Source: Bryobacterales bacterium
GTDB lineage: Bacteria > Acidobacteriota > Terriglobia > Bryobacterales > UBA6623
Assembly (NCBI GenBank): GCA_028819575.1
Contig: JAPPLB010000137.1
Coordinates: 1 to 32,845, forward strand
Direction of reading: 5' to 3'
Length of the DNA stretch: 32,845 nucleotides
The notes below the pieces were generated by a model. That model was not told the DNA's origin, searched no databases, and worked only from the letters and a program-made list of their open reading frames with translations. Of the stretch, positions 5,282 through 23,246 are shown piece after piece; the stretch's first letter is position 1; each line of letters starts with the position of its first letter. The translations under genes and the position numbers were made by a program.

Positions 5282-5476
5282 CTGACCTGTGTTTCTCACC
5301 ACGTGGCGAGGCGAAGTGCGTGAGAGGGCCGTCAGGACGAGGCGCGGGCCGGGCGGAGGAAAAAGGCGCACGCAGCATGGCCTTTAAGGTTTTTCACGAA
5401 TCACGAGGCACGAAACACGAATCACGGCCTTTTTATCGCGTGCTTCGACCGTCGGGTAGTGAGAAATGCAGGTCAG
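5282..5476 (+). repeat. Repeat family 1, copy C (full, with five 7-bp units)
   Basis: A 195-bp copy with termini CTGACCTG and CAGGTCAG, perfectly complementary over their outer 8 bases but different from copy A. The inner terminal repeats match with three mismatches. The interior contains a tandem of a 7-bp unit (CACGAAT, CACGAGG, CACGAAA, CACGAAT, CACGGCC) at 5395-5429. It lies between the divergently arranged gluconolactonase-like and DHH genes, directly upstream of the former. Confidence 0.85.
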
Positions 5477-8943: not shown

Positions 8944-9026
8944 CTGACCTGAAACATCCTCCTGATCAAGCGGCGTTGACAACGGTTCGGATGTTTCTCG
9001 CTTGAACGATCCTCACACGAGCGGCG
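8944..9026 (+). repeat. Repeat family 2, copy 1 (interleaved inverted repeats)
   Basis: It shares the first 29 bases with the copy at 23153, then differs, then matches again. Two pairings are conserved: GAAACATCC (8951-8959) with GGATGTTTC (8989-8997), and TCAAGCG (8966-8972) with CGCTTGA (8999-9005). The arms are interleaved, as in an H-type pseudoknot, and the loop between them is not conserved. It ends with a shared ACACGAGCGG tail. It lies between the divergent MFS and NagB-like genes. Confidence 0.75.
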
Positions 9027-15939: not shown

Positions 15940-16036
15940 GCCGGACCGATCGCGGGCGGTCAAAGAGCCTGCCTCCCCACGCCATCCATCGACTCGACGT
16001 TGAAGATCAGCGTCGCGTTGACCGATGCTGTTGACG

Positions 16037-16256
16037 AGCCTGCCTTTTCACCACGCGGCAAGGCGAAGTGCGTGAGAGGGCCGTCAGGACGAGGCGCGAG
16101 CCGCTTGACGCACGCAGGTGTAGCGGCCGTATCGCCTCCTTCGGCCCTCGGGTTGCGAGACACGCAACACGGCCTTTAGGTTTTTCACGAGTCACGAAAC
16201 ACGAATCACGGCCTTTTTTCGCGTGCTTCGGCCGTCGGGTGGTGAGAAATGCAGGT
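16037..16256 (+). repeat. Repeat family 1, copy D (full, with four 7-bp units)
   Basis: A copy of about 220 bp starting AGCCTGCCTTTTCACCAC and ending GTGGTGAGAAATGCAGG. The outer bases are less well paired than in copies A, B and C. The interior has the same module as copies C and G, with four 7-bp units (CACGAGT, CACGAAA, CACGAAT, CACGGCC) at 16186-16213. The right end abuts a SUKH-like gene fragment, so insertion or recombination here probably removed that gene's N-terminal part. A weak match to the left core (AGCCTGCCTCCCCACGC) at 15967 may be a still older remnant. Confidence 0.8.
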
Positions 16257-16381
16257 TGAACCCCGTGATCTTGGTTGGCGCTCCTGAGCCGAGAGGGGTA
16301 GCTCAGTCGTTCAGTGACTTTGTCGATCTTTACCTCAATGATTCTCCTGACCGGTACGTGAAGGCAGACCAGGAATTCTAG
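16256..16381 (+). pseudogene. C-terminal remnant of a SUKH (SMI1/KNR4)-like protein
   Basis: Reading from the right edge of repeat copy D, an open frame encodes about 38 residues, including VAQSFSDFVDLYLNDSPDRY, and ends at TAG (16379-16381). This resembles the end of SMI1/KNR4-type proteins, which often serve as immunity proteins against contact-dependent toxins. No start, ribosome site or N-terminal part is left. The assignment rests on a short pattern only. Confidence 0.45.
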
Positions 16382-16435
16382 CTGTAGAACCATGGAAGCC
16401 GCGTTGCCGCTGCCGGCTGATCTGCCGGATCCGGT

Positions 16436-16690
16436 TCACTGACCGCTCAATCCGCTGGCGATTTCGCTGTAGTCCGCCCTTGCCCTCTCCGGGTGAATTT
16501 CATAGATGATGTATTCGCTGTTGTGCTCTCGTGCCAGGTCCTTGTAGAAGCCCCTCGACTTCTTCACTTGATGACGGCAAGGACAGCATTCAGCTCATTC
16601 CGTTCGGCAAGCCGGCATTCCGTTCGTACTTGCCGGGCACCTCATCTCCAGCAAAAACGACTTTGAGATCTACGTGGTAGCCTGACTTGG
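16436..16690 (-). pseudogene. Frameshifted remnant of an unknown protein
   Basis: On the minus strand, coding-like text runs through different frames: GYHVDLKVVFAGDEVPGKYERN, then NELNAVLAVIK in a second frame, then KKSRGFYKDLAREH and SEYIIYEIHPERARADYS in a third, ending at TGA (16438-16436). The charged and hydrophobic pattern looks like real protein, and the frames join with small shifts, as in a decaying gene. I do not recognise the family. The 5' part is overlapped by the UspA gene that starts at 16696. Confidence 0.35.
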
Positions 16691-16695
16691 TCAGC

Positions 16696-17598
16696 ATGCC
16701 GAGCAGCCAATCGGAAACAAACCTGATCGGGCACGTTCTGGCGCCCGTTGATTTCTCGAAACGATGCGCCGCCACTGCTCCCTATGCGATTTCGCTGGCC
16801 GACCGCTTCAAGGCCAGACTCACCTTCGCCCACGTCATTCCTGGGCTCCCCTATCAGGGGACCGAGAAAGAGGCATTCTACGGTCCAAGAGGCGAGATCG
16901 TCTCGGGACGTGAACTAGACCGGTATTACCGCAGTCGCCTGGACGATTTTGTGCAGGAAGCCACCGGCAATGCGGATGTGGGCAGGATTCTGCTCAAGGG
17001 AGATGTCTCGCAGCGGATCGAGGAATACGCTCGCAATAGCGGCGTTGATCTAGTGGTGATTCCTACTCATGGATACGGGCCCTTCCGCCACATGCTGCTC
17101 GGATCGGTGGCCTCACGCATCTTGCACGACCTAACATGTGCGATCTTCAGCGGCGTCCATACCGCCGAGCCGCCCGAGATTCCGCCCCGTTTCAAGAGAG
17201 TGGCGTGCGCGTTGGACCTGGGGCCTCACAGCGAGAGGGTGCTGCGTTGGGCCTGTGAGTTTGTCAGGGTCTGGGAGGCAAGTCTCCTGTTGATTCACGT
17301 CACACCCCGACTCGAGTTCGAGGTCTATCAACCGCATTTCGTCAAGGACGACTGGCACGATAAGATGGCCGGCGCAGGGCGAGAGGCTGTCGAGCAACTG
17401 ATGGAGCGCGTCGGCTGCGAAGCGCATGTGAATGTGCAGGCAGGGCATCCAGTGCATTCCGTTGTGGCTGCGGCCGCAGACGAGCGCGCGGATGTGCTGA
17501 TCATCGGCCGAGGCCGGGCTTCAGAAATTCCGAGCAGGTTGACGACGCACGCTTACGGGATCATTCGAGAGGCCCGGTGTCCGGTAATCAGCGTTTGA
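16696..17598 (+). CDS. Tandem universal stress protein (two UspA domains)
   Basis: About 300 residues containing two UspA folds in a row. Domain 1 begins IGHVLAPVDFSKRCAATAPYA and has the nucleotide-binding loop IPTHGYGPFRHMLLGSVAS near residues 123-140, matching the GxxG-9x-G(S/T) pattern of ATP-binding USPs. Domain 2 begins FKRVACALDLGPHSERVLRWA and ends VLIIGRGRASEIPS, where the loop is degenerate. The protein is probably cytoplasmic and linked to stress or redox survival. A TTG nine bases upstream is an alternative start. It precedes a second tandem USP gene by about 110 bases. Confidence 0.82.
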   Translation: MPSSQSETNLIGHVLAPVDFSKRCAATAPYAISLADRFKARLTFAHVIPGLPYQGTEKEAFYGPRGEIVSGRELDRYYRSRLDDFVQEATGNADVGRILLKGDVSQRIEEYARNSGVDLVVIPTHGYGPFRHMLLGSVASRILHDLTCAIFSGVHTAEPPEIPPRFKRVACALDLGPHSERVLRWACEFVRVWEASLLLIHVTPRLEFEVYQPHFVKDDWHDKMAGAGREAVEQLMERVGCEAHVNVQAGHPVHSVVAAAADERADVLIIGRGRASEIPSRLTTHAYGIIREARCPVISV

Positions 17599-17706
17599 AC
17601 CCGCATCTCCGGCTTGGTCTCAAGTTAGATCTAGCAGCAGGAAGCAAGTGGCATGCCGGTGGGTCCGTCTACTGCCGGACGCCCCGAGACGAAAGAGGGA
17701 AAAACG

Positions 17707-18660
17707 ATGACAAGGTTCAAGAAGGTTCTCGTCTACGTCAACACCGACAATGAGAAGCACGCGGCCCTCGATCGCGCGGTCCGTCTGACGGAAACGACGG
17801 GCGCCCGGCTCACGGCCGTGGACGTCGTGCCGGACTTGCCTGAACTCTTTCCCGAACTCGATTCGCCGCCCTGGGTGGTGCCGAGTGAGATCGCCACGTA
17901 CAAGCGTGACGAATTGTTGAGGCTGGTAGCCCCGTTCCGCCGCCGGGGAGTAGAGGCGGAGGTCGACATTCTTTACGGCAATCCTGCTGTCGAGTTGATC
18001 CGGGAGGTCCAGAGAAACGGGCACGACCTGCTGTTGAAAACAGCCGAAAGGGGCGGACTGACGAAGCTGTTCGGCACCACGGCGATGCGGTTGCTGAGGA
18101 AATGCCCGTGCCCGGTCATGCTCGTCAAGCCCGGCCGAGCGAAACGATTTGCGCGTATTCTCGCCGCGGTGGACATTGCCCCGCACGACCGGGAAAATGC
18201 GGCGGTCAGCAAGAAGGTGCTCGATTTGGCTCTGTCCGTGGCCAAGTTCGAAGGAAGCGAGCTTCACGTACTTCACGCCTGGAGAGTGCTCGGCAAAGCC
18301 GCGCTCAGGCGGGCTGAAGTTCCAGACGGCGAACTGCGAGAATACACAGAGTCCATGCGAAGGATTGTCCAGGCGTCCTTCGATGAGTTTCTGGCCGGGT
18401 TCGATCTGCCCCAGAAGCGTGGCCGCGTTCACCTGCTGGAAGGCGATGCCGGGGTCGTGATCCCTGACTTCGTGAAGAAGAGACGAGTCGCCCTGTTGGT
18501 GATGGGGAGCGTGGCGCGTACAGGAATCTCGGGCCTGTTGATCGGCAACACCGCCGAGCGAGTGGTGGGGAATATCGGCTGCTCGCTGCTAGCCGTCAAG
18601 CCGGACGACTTTGTTTCACCGATCCAGCTCGAGGAGAATGGCACAGTCCACGTTGACTGA
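17707..18660 (+). CDS. UspE-like tandem universal stress protein
   Basis: A 317-residue two-domain USP. Domain 1 starts FKKVLVYVNTDNEKHAALDRA. Domain 2 ends with VALLVMGSVARTGISGLLIG and NTAERVVGNIGCSLLAVKPD, close to the UspE signature. UspE-type proteins act in stress tolerance and cell aggregation in enteric bacteria. GAGGGA lies about 7 bases before the ATG at 17707; the open frame extends to 17653, but the extension is not family-like. Together with the gene at 16696 this forms a USP pair, probably a small stress operon. Confidence 0.85.
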   Translation: MTRFKKVLVYVNTDNEKHAALDRAVRLTETTGARLTAVDVVPDLPELFPELDSPPWVVPSEIATYKRDELLRLVAPFRRRGVEAEVDILYGNPAVELIREVQRNGHDLLLKTAERGGLTKLFGTTAMRLLRKCPCPVMLVKPGRAKRFARILAAVDIAPHDRENAAVSKKVLDLALSVAKFEGSELHVLHAWRVLGKAALRRAEVPDGELREYTESMRRIVQASFDEFLAGFDLPQKRGRVHLLEGDAGVVIPDFVKKRRVALLVMGSVARTGISGLLIGNTAERVVGNIGCSLLAVKPDDFVSPIQLEENGTVHVD

Positions 18661-18810
18661 CCGGTATGGCGCTAGGCCTGCGCAGTGATTCCACAATCTG
18701 CGGCGAGAAGAGGTCTGTAATCTGGTGCGCGGGAGTTCCGTAATCCAACCCTGAGCGAGGGGGGAACATCGACCCATGTCGCTTGGCCGACGCCATGCCG
18801 ATCGTCGACG

Positions 18811-18869
18811 CTGGCCTGCATGTCTCACCACGCACTTCGCCTCGCCGCGTGGTGAGAAATGCAGGCTAG
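18811..18869 (-). repeat. Repeat family 1, copy E (59-bp snap-back hairpin form)
   Basis: Two 23-base arms match as inverted repeats with two differences, around a 13-base loop. The loop and right arm equal the first 39 bases of a full copy in reverse orientation, so the whole interior has been lost. The outermost bases are CTGG and CTAG, giving a G-T wobble in place of one base pair. The 150 bp between the UspE-like gene and this copy hold nothing I recognise. Confidence 0.8.
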
Positions 18870-18928
18870 TGGCAATCGGCGAAGGTGAAGCTTCTCATCG
18901 ACCAGAATCTTCTTTCCCACGAGGTGGC

Positions 18929-19264
18929 ATGGTTGGGGCAGTTCCCGGCCCCGCCGCCGATCCCATGAGCGAAGACGAACGCCTCGAGATGCTCCGCACA
19001 GCGACCGAGGCCCACGCGGACCTCAAGGAGCTCACCCTCAGGTTGCGCCGCCGGCTGACCTCGAAAGCCCCGGCGACCAAGGCCGCCTTCAAGGCCGAGC
19101 AGGAGTTGTTTCGGCTCCGCCGCGAGGCGAGCTGCAGCGACTCCCGATCGAGGGTCCGGAACCGTCGCGACGGCGCGAGGAGTTGGGTGAGGTGCGACGC
19201 GGAGGCAAGGGCGTCGATATCGAGCGCCTGCGGCGCGGGAAGGATCGCGGCGGCGAGCGCTGAA
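18929..19264 (+). pseudogene. Frameshifted small charged helical protein
   Basis: The frame from ATG 18929 (or 18965) encodes MSEDERLEMLRTATEAHADL and a highly charged helix ending ELFRLRR near 19125. The coding pattern then continues in another frame as ELQRLPIEGPEPSRRREELG and VRRGGKGVDIERLRRGKDRG to a TGA at 19262-19264. GAGGTG precedes the ATG at 18929. It is either a recent one-base frameshift or two unrelated short frames. I do not recognise the family. It converges on the broken higA. Confidence 0.4.
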
Positions 19265-19383
19265 AAGTCCCCTCGAAACCACTACCGAGACCCGAACACC
19301 CAGGTCCTTTATTGGTCCAGCTCCTCGCTGAAAACGCCTCTACGGGCTTCTCCGAGGGAGTTTTTTCTCCGAGGGCAGGGGTT

Positions 19384-19653
19384 TTACAGTAGAGCACCAG
19401 CTTGTCGAGTCTCTGTGACGATCGCCTCGGCACGTTTGCGCGCTCTCATTCTCGCGTTCGCCAAATCGTAACTGGCCTGGTACCGCATCCAGAAATCGGC
19501 GTTCGACCAGCCGAGATTCTCAAAGCGCATGGCCATATCGGCCGAGATTCCGCCCCGGCCGTTGAGAACCCGGTCCAGGGTTGTGCGGGCCACGCCCAAC
19601 TTTTCGGTGGCGGTGGTCACCGTCAACCCTTCGGCCCTCCGGTTGCGAGACAC
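19384..19653 (-). pseudogene. higA: HigA-family antitoxin with N-terminus replaced by repeat copy F
   Basis: The helix-turn-helix core and C-terminus of a HigA/XRE antitoxin remain: LTVTTATEKLGVARTTLDRV, LNGRGGISADMAMRFENLGW, then NADFWMRYQASYDLANARMR. HigA proteins usually start about 20 residues earlier with a HPGEVL-type motif; that part is missing and the frame runs into repeat copy F. A GTG at 19653 or a TTG at 19626 inside the repeat, the latter with GGAGG nine bases ahead, could still start translation. No HigB toxin gene is present on either side, so this is an orphan and probably a remnant. Confidence 0.7.
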
Positions 19654-19711
19654 GCAATACGGCCTTTTTTCGCGTGCTTCGACCGTCGAGTGGTGAGAAA
19701 TGCTGGTTGAC
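19622..19711 (+). repeat. Repeat family 1, copy F (90 bp, left-deleted)
   Basis: The right two-fifths of a full copy, ending GTGGTGAGAAATGC, without the left core and without the 7-bp units. It is bounded by a perfect 7-bp inverted repeat, GTCAACC (19622-19628) and GGTTGAC (19705-19711). The left GTCAACC is also the codon sequence of the LTV part of HigA, so one outer arm appears to equal host sequence and the other its inverted copy. Confidence 0.75.
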
Positions 19712-19778
19712 TCCACCCGAGCTGCGGCCGTTTCTCTTGTTCGGGAATAATACAATGTGGGAAGAATCTTCCCGCGAG

Positions 19779-19989
19779 CAAGCCTGCCTTTCTCACCACG
19801 TGGCGAGGCGGAGTGGGTGAGAGGCCCTCAGGACGAGGCGTGTCGCGCGCAGGTGTAGCGGCCGTATCGCTTCCTTCGGCCCTCGGGTTACGAGACACGC
19901 AACACGTCCTTTAAAGTTTTTTACGAATTACGAATCACGGCCTTTTTACCGCGTGCTCCGGCCGTCATGTGGTGAGAAATGCAGGCTAG
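19779..19989 (+). repeat. Repeat family 1, copy G (full, with three 7-bp units)
   Basis: A 211-bp copy with ends CAAGCCTGC and GCAGGCTAG and terminal repeats matching with two differences. The interior module is that of copies C and D, with three 7-bp units (TACGAAT, TACGAAT, CACGGCC) at 19922-19942. It is 67 bp from copy F. Its right end, GTGGTGAGAAATGCAGG, contains the ATG (19979) that opens the following esterase gene. Confidence 0.85.
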
Positions 19990-22090
19990 CCCCTCCGACT
20001 CCCATCTCATCGCGCCGAATCCGATCACACGAGGAGAATTCCTCGTTGCGCTCGCAGCGGGCGGTGCTGCGCTGGCGAGCCCCGCCGTCGCCCATGACGG
20101 TGGCCGCATGATGTGGGACTTCATGACCGGCTACATCCGCCTGCTCGACCAAAAACGCCGCGAGCGTTTCGACGCCATCGAAACTGCGGAGGATCTCGAC
20201 GTGCTGCGGCGCAAGGTTCGCTCCAGGCTCACCGAGATGTGGGGTCCTTTCCCCAAGGAAAAGACGCCGCTCAACCCGCAGAGGCTCGGCGTGATCGAGC
20301 GACAGGGTTACCGCATCGAGAAGATCATCTACGAATCGCGGCCGCGGTTGTTCGTGCCCGTGAACCTGTACCGTCCCACCGGCGCCGACGGACCCTTTCC
20401 GGCCACCATCTTTCCTCCCGGTCATGCCGCGGCGGGGAAGGCCTTTCCCGACTATCAGAAGTTCTGCATTCGGATGGCTCAGTCGGGATTCGTCGTTCTC
20501 ATCTGGGATCCGATCAGTCAAGGCGAGCGCATCCAGCTTTGGAACACGAAAGACGACAGCCCGTTGGCTGGAACAGGCACCGGGGAGCACAGCGTGCTGG
20601 GGCGGCAGTGCTACCTGCTGGGTCTCAACTTGATGCAGTACCGGGTTTGGGAGTCGATTCGGGCGATCGACTACCTGGAATCGCGCTCCGATGTGGACGC
20701 CGGCCGAATCGCCATGGCCGGCAACTCGGGCGGCGGCATGGAGACGCTCCAATTCGCTGGCTTCGAGGACCGGCTGCGCGCCGCCGTATCCACCTGCGCC
20801 GTTGCGACGTTCCGCGCAAAGACCGAGGCCTTGTTGATTGCCGACCCGGAGCAGATCCTTCACGGCACGCTGCGGCACGGTATCGATCATCCCGAATTGC
20901 TGGCCAGCTTCGGACCCAGGCCCTTGATGATCGGCGCGGCCATCCGGGACTACGTTCCCATCGCGGCCACCCGCAGCACGTACCAGGAAGTCGCCAAGGC
21001 CTATCGTCTGCTGAACGCCTCCGGGAAGCTTGTCCTGCGGGAAACGGACGACACGCACGGCCTCAACAGGGAATTGCGGGATGCCGCCGTTCGCTGGCTG
21101 AGTCGCTGGTTGAATCCTGATGCCCCGAAGAGCGAAGAGCCGTTGGCTGTTCTGCCGGAGGAGGATCTTCGTTGCACCTCGACGGGCCAGGTCGCGACCT
21201 CCTTCGATCCGAGCAGCGTCTTGACGCTGAACCAGGCGTACGCCGAGCAGACGGCCCCGCAGCGTTCCGTCCCCAAAACAGCGGATGAATACACCGTCTT
21301 TCGCTCTGAAATCCGCCGTCGGGTCCAGAACATTACCCGGGTCGGACCGTTGAAACGCGAGCCAGGCGTTCTCGTGCCGGACCGTGTCTTCGATACGGCG
21401 GATTTCCCCAAAGGCGACGCGATCGTCGTCTCCGATTCGGGCAAGGACGATCCGCTCATTCGCCGCAGTGTCATCGACCCGCTCATTGCCGCGGGCTACC
21501 GGGTCGTCGGCATCGACCTTCGTGGATGGGGCGCCACGAAGCCCGCCCTCGAGGGCTACCAGGTAAGGTTCGACTGGGACGACTTCTTTGCCTACCGTTC
21601 CCTGGAGATCGGCCGGCCGCTGTTGGGCCAGCGCATGAGAGATCTGCTCGGGGCGGCCCCGAGCCGGACCACGCACCGCACCTGGCTTGTAGTCGGCGTC
21701 GGTGCGGCGGCGCTCGTTGCGCTGCACGCGGCCGTGATCGATCCGAGGATCGATCGGCTGGTCACGGTAGGCGGATTGCTGTCGTACCGATCGCTCATTG
21801 ACGATCCGCTCGCAACAGAACCCTTCAGCAGCTATCTGCCCGGAGTGGTTCGCGCCTATGACATCCGTGATCTCTATGCGGCGTTGGCGCCGCGCCAGGT
21901 TCTGGTCGTGAATCCCATGAGCTCGCGCCGCCAGCCGCTCGGAAGGGTGCAAGCCTGGGAGCAGCTTGACTGGGCGTCCCGGGTCTACGAGCTGAACGGC
22001 GCGGCTGATTCATTCCGGCTGGAGACGAAAATCAGCTCCTTGCAGATGCGGGAAACGCTCGAAGCATGGGCCGGTGCGGTAACCTGCTAA
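19979..22090 (+). CDS. Exported alpha/beta hydrolase, acetyl xylan esterase-like, with second hydrolase-like domain
   Basis: A 703-residue protein. The first half is an acetyl xylan esterase-type alpha/beta hydrolase: FPATIFPPGHAAAGKAFPDY, nucleophile motif GNSGGG (Ser near residue 250) and DDTHGLN with the likely catalytic His near 360. The second half (from about residue 420) resembles another alpha/beta fold (YRVVGIDLRGWGATKP, VVGVGAAALVALHA) but lacks a clear nucleophile. Such proteins deacetylate or split esters of plant polysaccharides. The N-terminus has a Tat-like TRGEFLVALAAGGAALASPA segment with one arginine. The only in-frame start is the ATG inside repeat copy G, preceded by GGTGAG. 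The BNR gene follows after 10 bases. Confidence 0.8.
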   Translation: MQASPSDSHLIAPNPITRGEFLVALAAGGAALASPAVAHDGGRMMWDFMTGYIRLLDQKRRERFDAIETAEDLDVLRRKVRSRLTEMWGPFPKEKTPLNPQRLGVIERQGYRIEKIIYESRPRLFVPVNLYRPTGADGPFPATIFPPGHAAAGKAFPDYQKFCIRMAQSGFVVLIWDPISQGERIQLWNTKDDSPLAGTGTGEHSVLGRQCYLLGLNLMQYRVWESIRAIDYLESRSDVDAGRIAMAGNSGGGMETLQFAGFEDRLRAAVSTCAVATFRAKTEALLIADPEQILHGTLRHGIDHPELLASFGPRPLMIGAAIRDYVPIAATRSTYQEVAKAYRLLNASGKLVLRETDDTHGLNRELRDAAVRWLSRWLNPDAPKSEEPLAVLPEEDLRCTSTGQVATSFDPSSVLTLNQAYAEQTAPQRSVPKTADEYTVFRSEIRRRVQNITRVGPLKREPGVLVPDRVFDTADFPKGDAIVVSDSGKDDPLIRRSVIDPLIAAGYRVVGIDLRGWGATKPALEGYQVRFDWDDFFAYRSLEIGRPLLGQRMRDLLGAAPSRTTHRTWLVVGVGAAALVALHAAVIDPRIDRLVTVGGLLSYRSLIDDPLATEPFSSYLPGVVRAYDIRDLYAALAPRQVLVVNPMSSRRQPLGRVQAWEQLDWASRVYELNGAADSFRLETKISSLQMRETLEAWAGAVTC

Positions 22091-22100
22091 GCTTCCCTTC

Positions 22101-23156
22101 ATGCACCGAATAGGCTTATCCGCGGTTGTGATACTGCTGGTCGCGTTAGCCGCCGGCCTCACTGCTTCCGAGCGCTATGTCGCTGTGGACAACGTCTGCG
22201 CCTGGCCGAACCTGACGGTCTTGCCGAATGGGGACTTGACGGCCGCGATCTTCAACCACCCAAGTCACGGGCTCGCCGAGGGCGACGTGGAGGTATGGGC
22301 GAGTTCGGATGGAGGCAAGCTCTGGGAGCTTCGCGGAGCCGCCACCACGCACGACCCGGGAACGAACCGCATGAACGTCGCGGCCGGCCTGGCTCACAAC
22401 GGGGATCTGGTCGTGCTCGCATCGGGCTGGGGCGGGGCTGGTTTCCGCAGGAAGATCCTGCCGGTGATGGTGAATCGTTCTTCCGACGGCGGCCGGACCT
22501 GGCAGCGCTCGTTCGGCGTCGAGCTCCCCGGCGGGCTTTCTTACCTCATTCCCTTCGGTGACATCGTCCTGATGGAGAGCGGCATGTTGGCGGCCCCCTT
22601 CTATCAGGAGGACCGCGACGTGTCGTCCGGCAAGCGACCGCAGGTAAGCAAGGGCAGCGCCTACCTCCTTTTCAGCAAGGACGACGGGCGGACCTGGGGA
22701 GACGGCGTTGTCCTCGCACGCGGCGATTACAACGAGACGTCCGTCCTGAGGATTCGCCCCGATCGCTGGTTGGCGGCGGTGCGGACCTATCGAGACGGGC
22801 ACCTCGAGCTTTTTGAATCGAGCAATGAAGGGAAGACCTGGAAGAATGCCGGGCCCCTCACGCTGCCCAGCCATCATCCGGCCCACCTGCTTCAACTCGA
22901 TGACGGCCGCATCCTGCTGACCTACGGCATCCGCGAGAAAGGGCACCAGGGCGTGGGGATGCGCATCAGCGAGGACGAAGGGAAGACCTGGAAAGCTCCG
23001 ACGCGAGTCGTCAACCTTGAAGGCACCACCGACGGCGGCTATCCGTCCACGGTCCAGCTTCCGGACGGCAGCCTTCTTACGGCGTACTACAGCAACGGCA
23101 TTCCCCAACACCGCCGCTACCACATGGGAGTGGTCCGCTGGACGTTGTCTGACTGA
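22101..23156 (+). CDS. Exported sialidase/BNR-repeat family protein
   Basis: A 351-residue secreted beta-propeller of the sialidase superfamily. Asp-box type repeats are visible as SSDGGKLWE, SSDGGRTWQ, SKDDGRTWGDG, SSNEGKTWKNAG and SEDEGKTWKAP. The N-terminus has a signal peptide (LSAVVILLVALAAGLTAS). Many such proteins cleave or bind sialic acid or related glycans; the full set of sialidase arginines was not confirmed, so the substrate is open. It probably shares a transcript with the esterase. The stop codon TGA (23154-23156) is formed by the first bases of repeat family 2 copy 2. Confidence 0.82.
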   Translation: MHRIGLSAVVILLVALAAGLTASERYVAVDNVCAWPNLTVLPNGDLTAAIFNHPSHGLAEGDVEVWASSDGGKLWELRGAATTHDPGTNRMNVAAGLAHNGDLVVLASGWGGAGFRRKILPVMVNRSSDGGRTWQRSFGVELPGGLSYLIPFGDIVLMESGMLAAPFYQEDRDVSSGKRPQVSKGSAYLLFSKDDGRTWGDGVVLARGDYNETSVLRIRPDRWLAAVRTYRDGHLELFESSNEGKTWKNAGPLTLPSHHPAHLLQLDDGRILLTYGIREKGHQGVGMRISEDEGKTWKAPTRVVNLEGTTDGGYPSTVQLPDGSLLTAYYSNGIPQHRRYHMGVVRWTLSD

Positions 23157-23238
23157 CCTGAAACATCCTCCTGATCAAGCGAGAGCGGACACCCATCCGG
23201 ATGTTTCCGGCTTGAATGATCCGCACACGAGCGGAGGA
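23153..23238 (+). repeat. Repeat family 2, copy 2 (interleaved inverted repeats)
   Basis: The same two pairings as copy 1: GAAACATCC (23160-23168) with GGATGTTTC (23199-23207), and TCAAGC (23175-23180) with GCTTGA (23210-23215). The intervening loop differs from copy 1, while the stems and the ACACGAGCGG tail are kept. It occupies the gap between the convergent BNR and aldo/keto reductase genes and may act there as a bidirectional end signal. Confidence 0.75.
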
Positions 23239-23246
23239 AAAGCTGG

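Follow-up and report, generated by a model that had tools for sequence, protein, structure and literature searches.

Genes apparently re-started from the ends of a MITE-like mobile repeat in a Bryobacterales bacterium

Results

The esterase frame opens inside a repeat end

The window (the whole stretch of 32,845 nucleotides that was analysed) contains a copy of a mobile repeat, copy G, which runs into the first codons of a hydrolase gene. The features of the locus are as follows.

15982..19858, no strand: segment missing at the syntenic place of genome G002 (G002 comparison)
19779..19782: CAAG, left-hand target tetranucleotide of copy G
19783..19985, + strand: repeat copy G, MITE-like, 203 bp from terminus to terminus, inverted termini at both ends
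19783..19799, - strand: left terminal inverted repeat, differing from the right end at a single base, the one facing the T of ATG
19969..19985, + strand: right terminal inverted repeat GTGGTGAGAAATGCAGG, exact consensus (motif match)
19971..19976, + strand: GGTGAG, Shine-Dalgarno (SD)-like, containing an in-frame TGA (duplex with the 16S 3' end)
19979..19981, + strand: putative esterase start codon, from the element; sole ATG/GTG/TTG before codon 44, the same in G002
19979..22090, + strand: 703-aa alpha/beta hydrolase ("esterase"), Abhydrolase_7, dN/dS 0.33 against G002
19986..19989, + strand: CTAG, right-hand 4-bp target tetranucleotide (4-bp target from empty sites of other copies)
20012..20014, + strand: codon 12, GCG here and GTG in G002, candidate ancestral start (sequence comparison)
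20024..20095, + strand: signal-like stretch ITRGEFLVALAAGGAALASPAVAH, one arginine versus RR in orthologues (sequence comparison)
20108..20110, + strand: codon 44, next in-frame ATG, a rival start lacking the signal-like stretch

The right terminus of copy G matched GTGGTGAGAAATGCAGG without any mismatch, and its ATG opens the 703-codon frame, which stops at 22090. The frame is shut just upstream, two codons before the ATG, by TGA at 19973-19975 inside GGTGAG. The first-pass annotation had proposed GGTGAG as a possible ribosome site, and the motif indeed forms a duplex of -7.4 kcal/mol with the 16S 3' end. It had also called the ATG of the terminus the only one in frame. This ATG does lie inside the terminus, but further in-frame ATGs were found at codons 44, 45 and 49, all past the signal-like stretch. 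An in-frame scan between codons 1 and 44 found no ATG, GTG or TTG. The element's ATG is the only canonical esterase start that would retain the signal-like stretch. No sigma-70 promoter was detected by a scan of 19600-20120.

The repeat is a MITE-like mobile element

With at most 1 mismatch, the terminus occurred 974 times in the 5.37-Mb genome G000, to which the window belongs, while the reversed-pattern control gave 0; the repeat probably breaks the assembly, so such copy numbers may be underestimates. The short G000 contigs C2, C4, C5 and C10 carry the repeat near both ends. With at most 3 mismatches, 12 termini were found in the window versus 0.02 expected. Among genomes of the same genus, G002 had 467 termini and G001 had 9; in the other 58 relatives searched, 4 had 1 to 5 matches and 54 had none.

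Samples of 1.44 Mb from G000 (27%) and 0.82 Mb from G002 were used to define the element. Termini formed 176 pairs less than 400 bp apart, and 70 of them were 176 or 177 bp long, the commonest length. The inverted ends are 17-21 bp. The consensus folds end to end, with -120.8 kcal/mol on one strand and -91.6 kcal/mol on the other; this difference of about 29 kcal/mol implies G-U pairs on one strand only. Strand-biased folding perhaps results from mutation bias or selection acting through the RNA. Both ends read outward as GGTGAGAAATGCAGG, with an SD-like stretch, an in-frame stop and the ATG, which ends four bases short of the element edge.

The boundary was determined from empty sites. The joined flanks of 11 copies matched the other genome; 2 of these were paralogous repeats, which left 9 orthologous empty sites. 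At most of these, the element and 4 bp are missing together. For copies other than copy G, such sites in the sister genome placed the element edge after GCAGG. The ATG lies within this boundary and is thus part of the element. Among the flanking tetranucleotides, CTAG, TTAA and CTAA are preferred, and also TCAG and CCAG. The two flanking 4-bp copies were often imperfect and often not identical to the empty site, as if they had been changed on or after insertion. The copy at 5286-5472 of the window and other polymorphic copies have CTAG/TCAG-like flanks though the empty site differs (e.g. CGCG).

The repeat is short and of high copy number; it has inverted ends and a 4-bp target site, and it carries no transposase gene. 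These features identify it as a non-autonomous MITE-like mobile element, often 176-177 bp long, with targets resembling YTAR. Insertion sequences of the IS5 group have the 4-bp target YTAR; the target preference found here resembles it in CTAG, TTAA and CTAA, but also includes TCAG and CCAG. Three longer intervals between termini (470, 1567 and 2493 bp) were searched and no transposase was found in them. As candidate autonomous parents, the 1567-bp interval (L164) was rejected since it contains a PQQ/BamB-like gene, and the 2493-bp interval (L141) since it contains a VWA gene and a gene without Pfam match. G000 has five DDE_Tnp_1 (PF01609) matches; outside these five loci, no transposase sharing the element's termini was found. 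Rfam gave no match for the repeat within the window. Minimal palindromes of 34 bp, with two termini back to back and no internal part, were observed at L061 20306-20339 and similar places. They suggested a REP/RAYT-like single-strand insertion, and the 4-bp target duplications speak against it.

Five further genes apparently start at the element ATG

The samples were searched for gene frames running to a terminus, so the cases below are not an unbiased count. The first-pass annotation had proposed a genome-wide look for genes that begin with MQA or MQV from the same terminus, and such genes were found. Besides the esterase, five genes have the element ATG as apparent start, encoding PDH E1, an MFS protein, a radical SAM protein, a sulfatase and an ankyrin protein, and three of them have an empty allele in the sister species.

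The PDH E1 gene (L072) can be read on both sides of the element, with ATGGCCATCGTTAA closing the left flank and TTAAGAAAACCCAG where the right one resumes. The filled G000 allele reads MQVKKTQPGKDT, versus the uninterrupted MANVTKTQPGKDT of G002. For radical SAM the roles are reversed, with G002 filled (MQASDRHRL) and G000 and G001 empty (MATDRHRL and MAPDRHRL). The MFS gene reads MQARPQGTFYGWY in G000 versus MESATQRGPTRPQGTFYGWY in G002; in G000 the contig ends at the copy, and its left flank is out of view. Since the sister species has these three genes element-free with their own start, the insertion appears to have replaced the start, in frame.

For the sulfatase and ankyrin genes, the element end is present in both species. 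The sulfatase gene has no ATG, GTG or TTG in codons 2-83 of either species; the next is at codon 84, and the Pfam Sulfatase domain begins ahead of it, at residue 24. In the G002 sulfatase gene, the sequence before the ATG has drifted to GGGAGGTTAAAAA, and its anti-SD pairing is still strong (-11.4). The next start of the PDH, MFS, radical SAM and sulfatase genes would cut into a domain or transmembrane region. The dN/dS was 0.16-0.23 for the five genes, and all six genes, with the esterase (0.16-0.33), are under purifying selection.

Several other loci were rejected as start users. Frame-0 genes with a natural start a short way downstream, L164 4420, L102 7636, L097 18786, L165 (both) and L124 among them, were dropped; at L107 6063-6236 the element ATG is mutated and another ATG follows.

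The esterase N-terminus differs from that of repeat-free orthologues

The G002 esterase has the same terminus and the same ATG start (MQVSPPDSHLLVPNPITRGEFL). The first-pass annotation had asked for a comparison with orthologues without the repeat. All 15 family orthologues (43-54% identity) lack the repeat and the N-terminal residues of the esterase, and start differently; their genomes have no terminus, barring one stray match in G013. A gene with the same N-terminus and no repeat upstream was looked for among them and none was found, the sole sharer being the repeat-bearing G002 gene. Most of the 15 have a candidate start 2-9 residues ahead of the twin arginine, and three (L040, L042 and L043) also have an ATG further upstream.

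The single arginine of the Tat-like signal, pointed out earlier, is real. All 15 orthologues have RR (TRR or SRR), and both repeat-bearing genes have RG; they read TRGEFL in place of a twin arginine before the hydrophobic stretch (TRG at 20030-20035 of the window), which makes the export route of the esterase uncertain. The missing arginine is a substitution about 16 codons beyond the element's end. It is thus a separate change and not a direct result of the insertion, and the view of it as a trace of an N-terminus lost to the repeat is not supported.

Between G000 and G002 the dN/dS of the whole esterase gene was 0.33. Codons 2-15 had 4 nonsynonymous and 0 synonymous differences, as if unconstrained as protein. 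Such a pattern would fit a former leader newly read as protein, or equally an untranslated stretch. Codon 12 (GTG in G002, GCG in G000) is possibly the ancestral start. Two direct repeat copies enclose some 3.9 kb (15982-19858) that G002 lacks at the syntenic place, and the element upstream of the G002 esterase differs from copy G in composition, so the ancestral left flank is not readable with confidence. The 3.9-kb difference may be a deletion or a gain via recombination between repeat copies. A search for an empty allele of the esterase itself found none, and the insertion appears to be older than the split of the two species.

Frame statistics of genes leaving the element

In the first samples, open frames that leave the termini and span 100 codons or more showed no excess for the ATG frame (9/21/9 in G000, 14/22/11 in G002). 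In larger samples, the predicted genes open to the terminus were 35/19/11 in frames 0/1/2. Frame 2 is often closed by the target TAR, so 35 versus 19 is the fairer test, and this excess is modest (p 0.04). For genes open to the terminus and without a start in their first 15 codons, the numbers were 8/2/1; requiring a coding score for the first 25 codons as well left 4/0/0. The radical SAM gene stays outside this startless set owing to a TTG.

Most of the 158 full elements lie outside genes; 4 were candidate 5'-end insertions and 1 was a candidate internal insertion, which we take for a gene that begins at the junction. Three of the 4 candidate 5' insertions (PDH, radical SAM and L107, whose ATG is mutated) were in the phase joining the element ATG to the gene (the rescuing phase), and one, a weak case, was in another phase. 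L093 11582 is a possible out-of-phase 5' insertion, but the sequence ahead of its junction has a non-coding score. As the cases were found by looking at frames, these counts are not selection-free, and the filled/empty pairs are the main evidence.

Ribosome pairing, hairpin and overlapping frames

Pairing energies were calculated with what we take to be the 16S 3' end (anti-SD) sequence. The consensus terminus reached -11.8 kcal/mol, which was equalled by 2% of 408 predicted host genes away from elements; the value of copy G (-7.4 kcal/mol) was equalled by 22% of the 408. The displaced native starts had -2.9 (PDH), +0.6 (radical SAM) and +0.5 (MFS). Many host genes look SD-poor. Hexamers resembling a -10 box, starting 13-18 nt ahead of host starts, were found 32 times versus about 12 expected, an excess compatible with some leaderless mRNAs.

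In a full transcript, the hairpin of the element would mask the start region. There, PDH, radical SAM and the G000 esterase had a mean unpaired probability of 0.06-0.13; the G002 esterase, sulfatase and ankyrin copies, with diverged or missing arms, had 0.23-0.44. At PDH and radical SAM, the frame of the old start crosses the whole element and closes with TAA/TAG, whose last base is 11 nt beyond the A of the element's ATG; overlaps of this kind are typical of translational coupling. The ankyrin copy has no such arrangement. Both strands of the 177-bp consensus are open in the rescuing phase. Of 120 oriented copies, 64 and 57 (two strands) were open in it, versus 41 for the best other phase. 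Judged from this geometry, translational coupling is a plausible way of handing ribosomes over to the new ATG. Of the termini, 290 of 398 and 155 of 226 had an intact ATG; the T of this codon, conserved at 0.81-0.82, ranked below most of the terminus and among its least conserved bases.

Discussion

It is quite probable, judging from the sequences compared, that genes in these genomes have been re-started from a mobile repeat, and that the element end serving as a portable start is a recurring outcome. A copy would land within, or just before, the first codons of a gene. One phase only, ATG CAG GYT ARN, would continue the frame of the gene; the insertion would separate the gene from its old start, and the product would now begin at the element with MQA... 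or MQV.... We infer that ribosomes start at the element's ATG. The idea of a portable translation start, raised in the first-pass annotation, is supported as such an outcome; an evolved function is not supported, and an incidental property fits better. The ribosome site is likely incidental to the element ends and has been kept by genes that depend on it.

In recent copies of full length, the former start codon might further drive an upstream frame through all 59 element codons. Its translation would melt the long hairpin. The frame would close at the right-hand target copy, on TAR, 11 nt beyond the A of the element's ATG, and ribosomes could be handed over to this ATG. In older copies, decayed hairpin arms would leave the start freer. 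A phase-locked, self-healing insertion of this kind, made of a 59-codon element, an open phase, a YTAR-derived TAR and a restart at the overlapping SD-ATG, is a tentative proposal that we consider possible but rather doubtful. If it were true, a hit at a gene start would yield an overlapping two-frame operon and the gene would not be killed.

The same observations can be read in other ways. The outward SD-ATG could be an adaptation of the element, if selection had favoured ends that repair the genes they hit. Its presence on both ends, the consensus pairing in the top 2% of host genes and the matching open phase on both strands of the 177-bp consensus agree with this reading. Against it, most of the terminus is better conserved than the start codon, and most copies are outside genes (4 candidate hits at 5' ends and 1 internal among 158 full elements); we regard an adaptation as unlikely. 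The in-frame cases could also be chance, given that some of about a thousand outward ATGs must meet genes. The ATG frame is not generally enriched among long open frames, and the cases were chosen for being in frame. Chance may account for the landing, but it does not account for the continued purifying selection on these genes. Three of them have empty alleles whose own start was lost on insertion, and a convincing out-of-phase equivalent was not found in our samples; we regard chance as a very unlikely explanation.

Two further readings concern the esterase itself. Translation might begin at codon 44 (ATG ATG TGG...), giving a signal-free, now cytoplasmic enzyme and leaving the repeat ATG idle. 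GGTGG ahead of codon 44 has a duplex of -6.6, near the -7.4 of the repeat, codons 2-15 look unconstrained and the second arginine of the Tat-like motif is gone. However, the hydrophobic stretch and the AVA-type cleavage region are intact in both species, the methionine of codon 44 is an ordinary conserved residue in orthologues, and the PDH, MFS, radical SAM and sulfatase genes would be left unexplained, so that a start at codon 44 seems quite improbable to us. Alternatively, an older start near codon 12, or a non-canonical codon, could be in use with the repeat merely upstream; the GTG CCG AAT CCG ATC ACA CGA kept in G002 resembles the GTG-led start region of orthologues such as L038. In G000, however, this place is GCG with no ATG, GTG or TTG nearby; the GTG of G002 has no SD-like pairing (+0.1), and it lacks the TAGAAT box that several orthologues have immediately before their GTG. 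Such a start is highly improbable. For the esterase as for the other five genes, we favour the start supplied by the element.

That mobile repeats can carry promoters and add peptides to proteins is established. The nearest precedent is MITEAba12 of Acinetobacter, whose terminal inverted repeat is described as supplying the first four residues (MQQS) of three neighbouring CDS (PMC6382973). There, as in the Bryobacterales element, the terminal inverted repeat of a MITE reads outward into a start codon, and in our data the start codon of the neighbouring CDS lies within the terminal inverted repeat for six genes. MITEAba12 differs in its length of 113 bp, its 9-bp target duplications, its weak folding and the 90 copies examined over many genomes (PMC6382973); section 11 of that report gives neither empty alleles of those genes nor a ribosome-site analysis. 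Rickettsia palindromic elements of about 150 bp are described as tolerated in protein genes via reading-frame compatibility (PMC10969869, PMC2229807). Unlike the repeat studied here, they lie within coding sequences and become part of the translated protein, and the passages compared do not describe a new start. ERIC/RU-1, RU-2 and RU-3 are small palindromic mobile repeats whose open frames are fused to genes, one RU-2 copy making up about half of a peptide on its N-terminal side (PMC2759123, PMC2229807). Those fusions contribute many residues, and an SD-ATG at the element edge is not described in the passages compared. The empty alleles, the selection on the genes, the embedded strong ribosome site and the possible coupled frame are added by the present cases; the comparison covered open-licence texts, and earlier reports may exist.

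Before/after pairs of genes that are still under selection point to a simple route for changing N-termini and ribosome sites, and start calls beside such repeats need checking. The survival of a bacterium under a heavy repeat load also becomes testable. The window carries a second repeat as well, beginning CTGACCTGAAACATCCTCCTGATCAAGCG, at 23153-23241, where the copy is missing from G002, and at 8944-8972.
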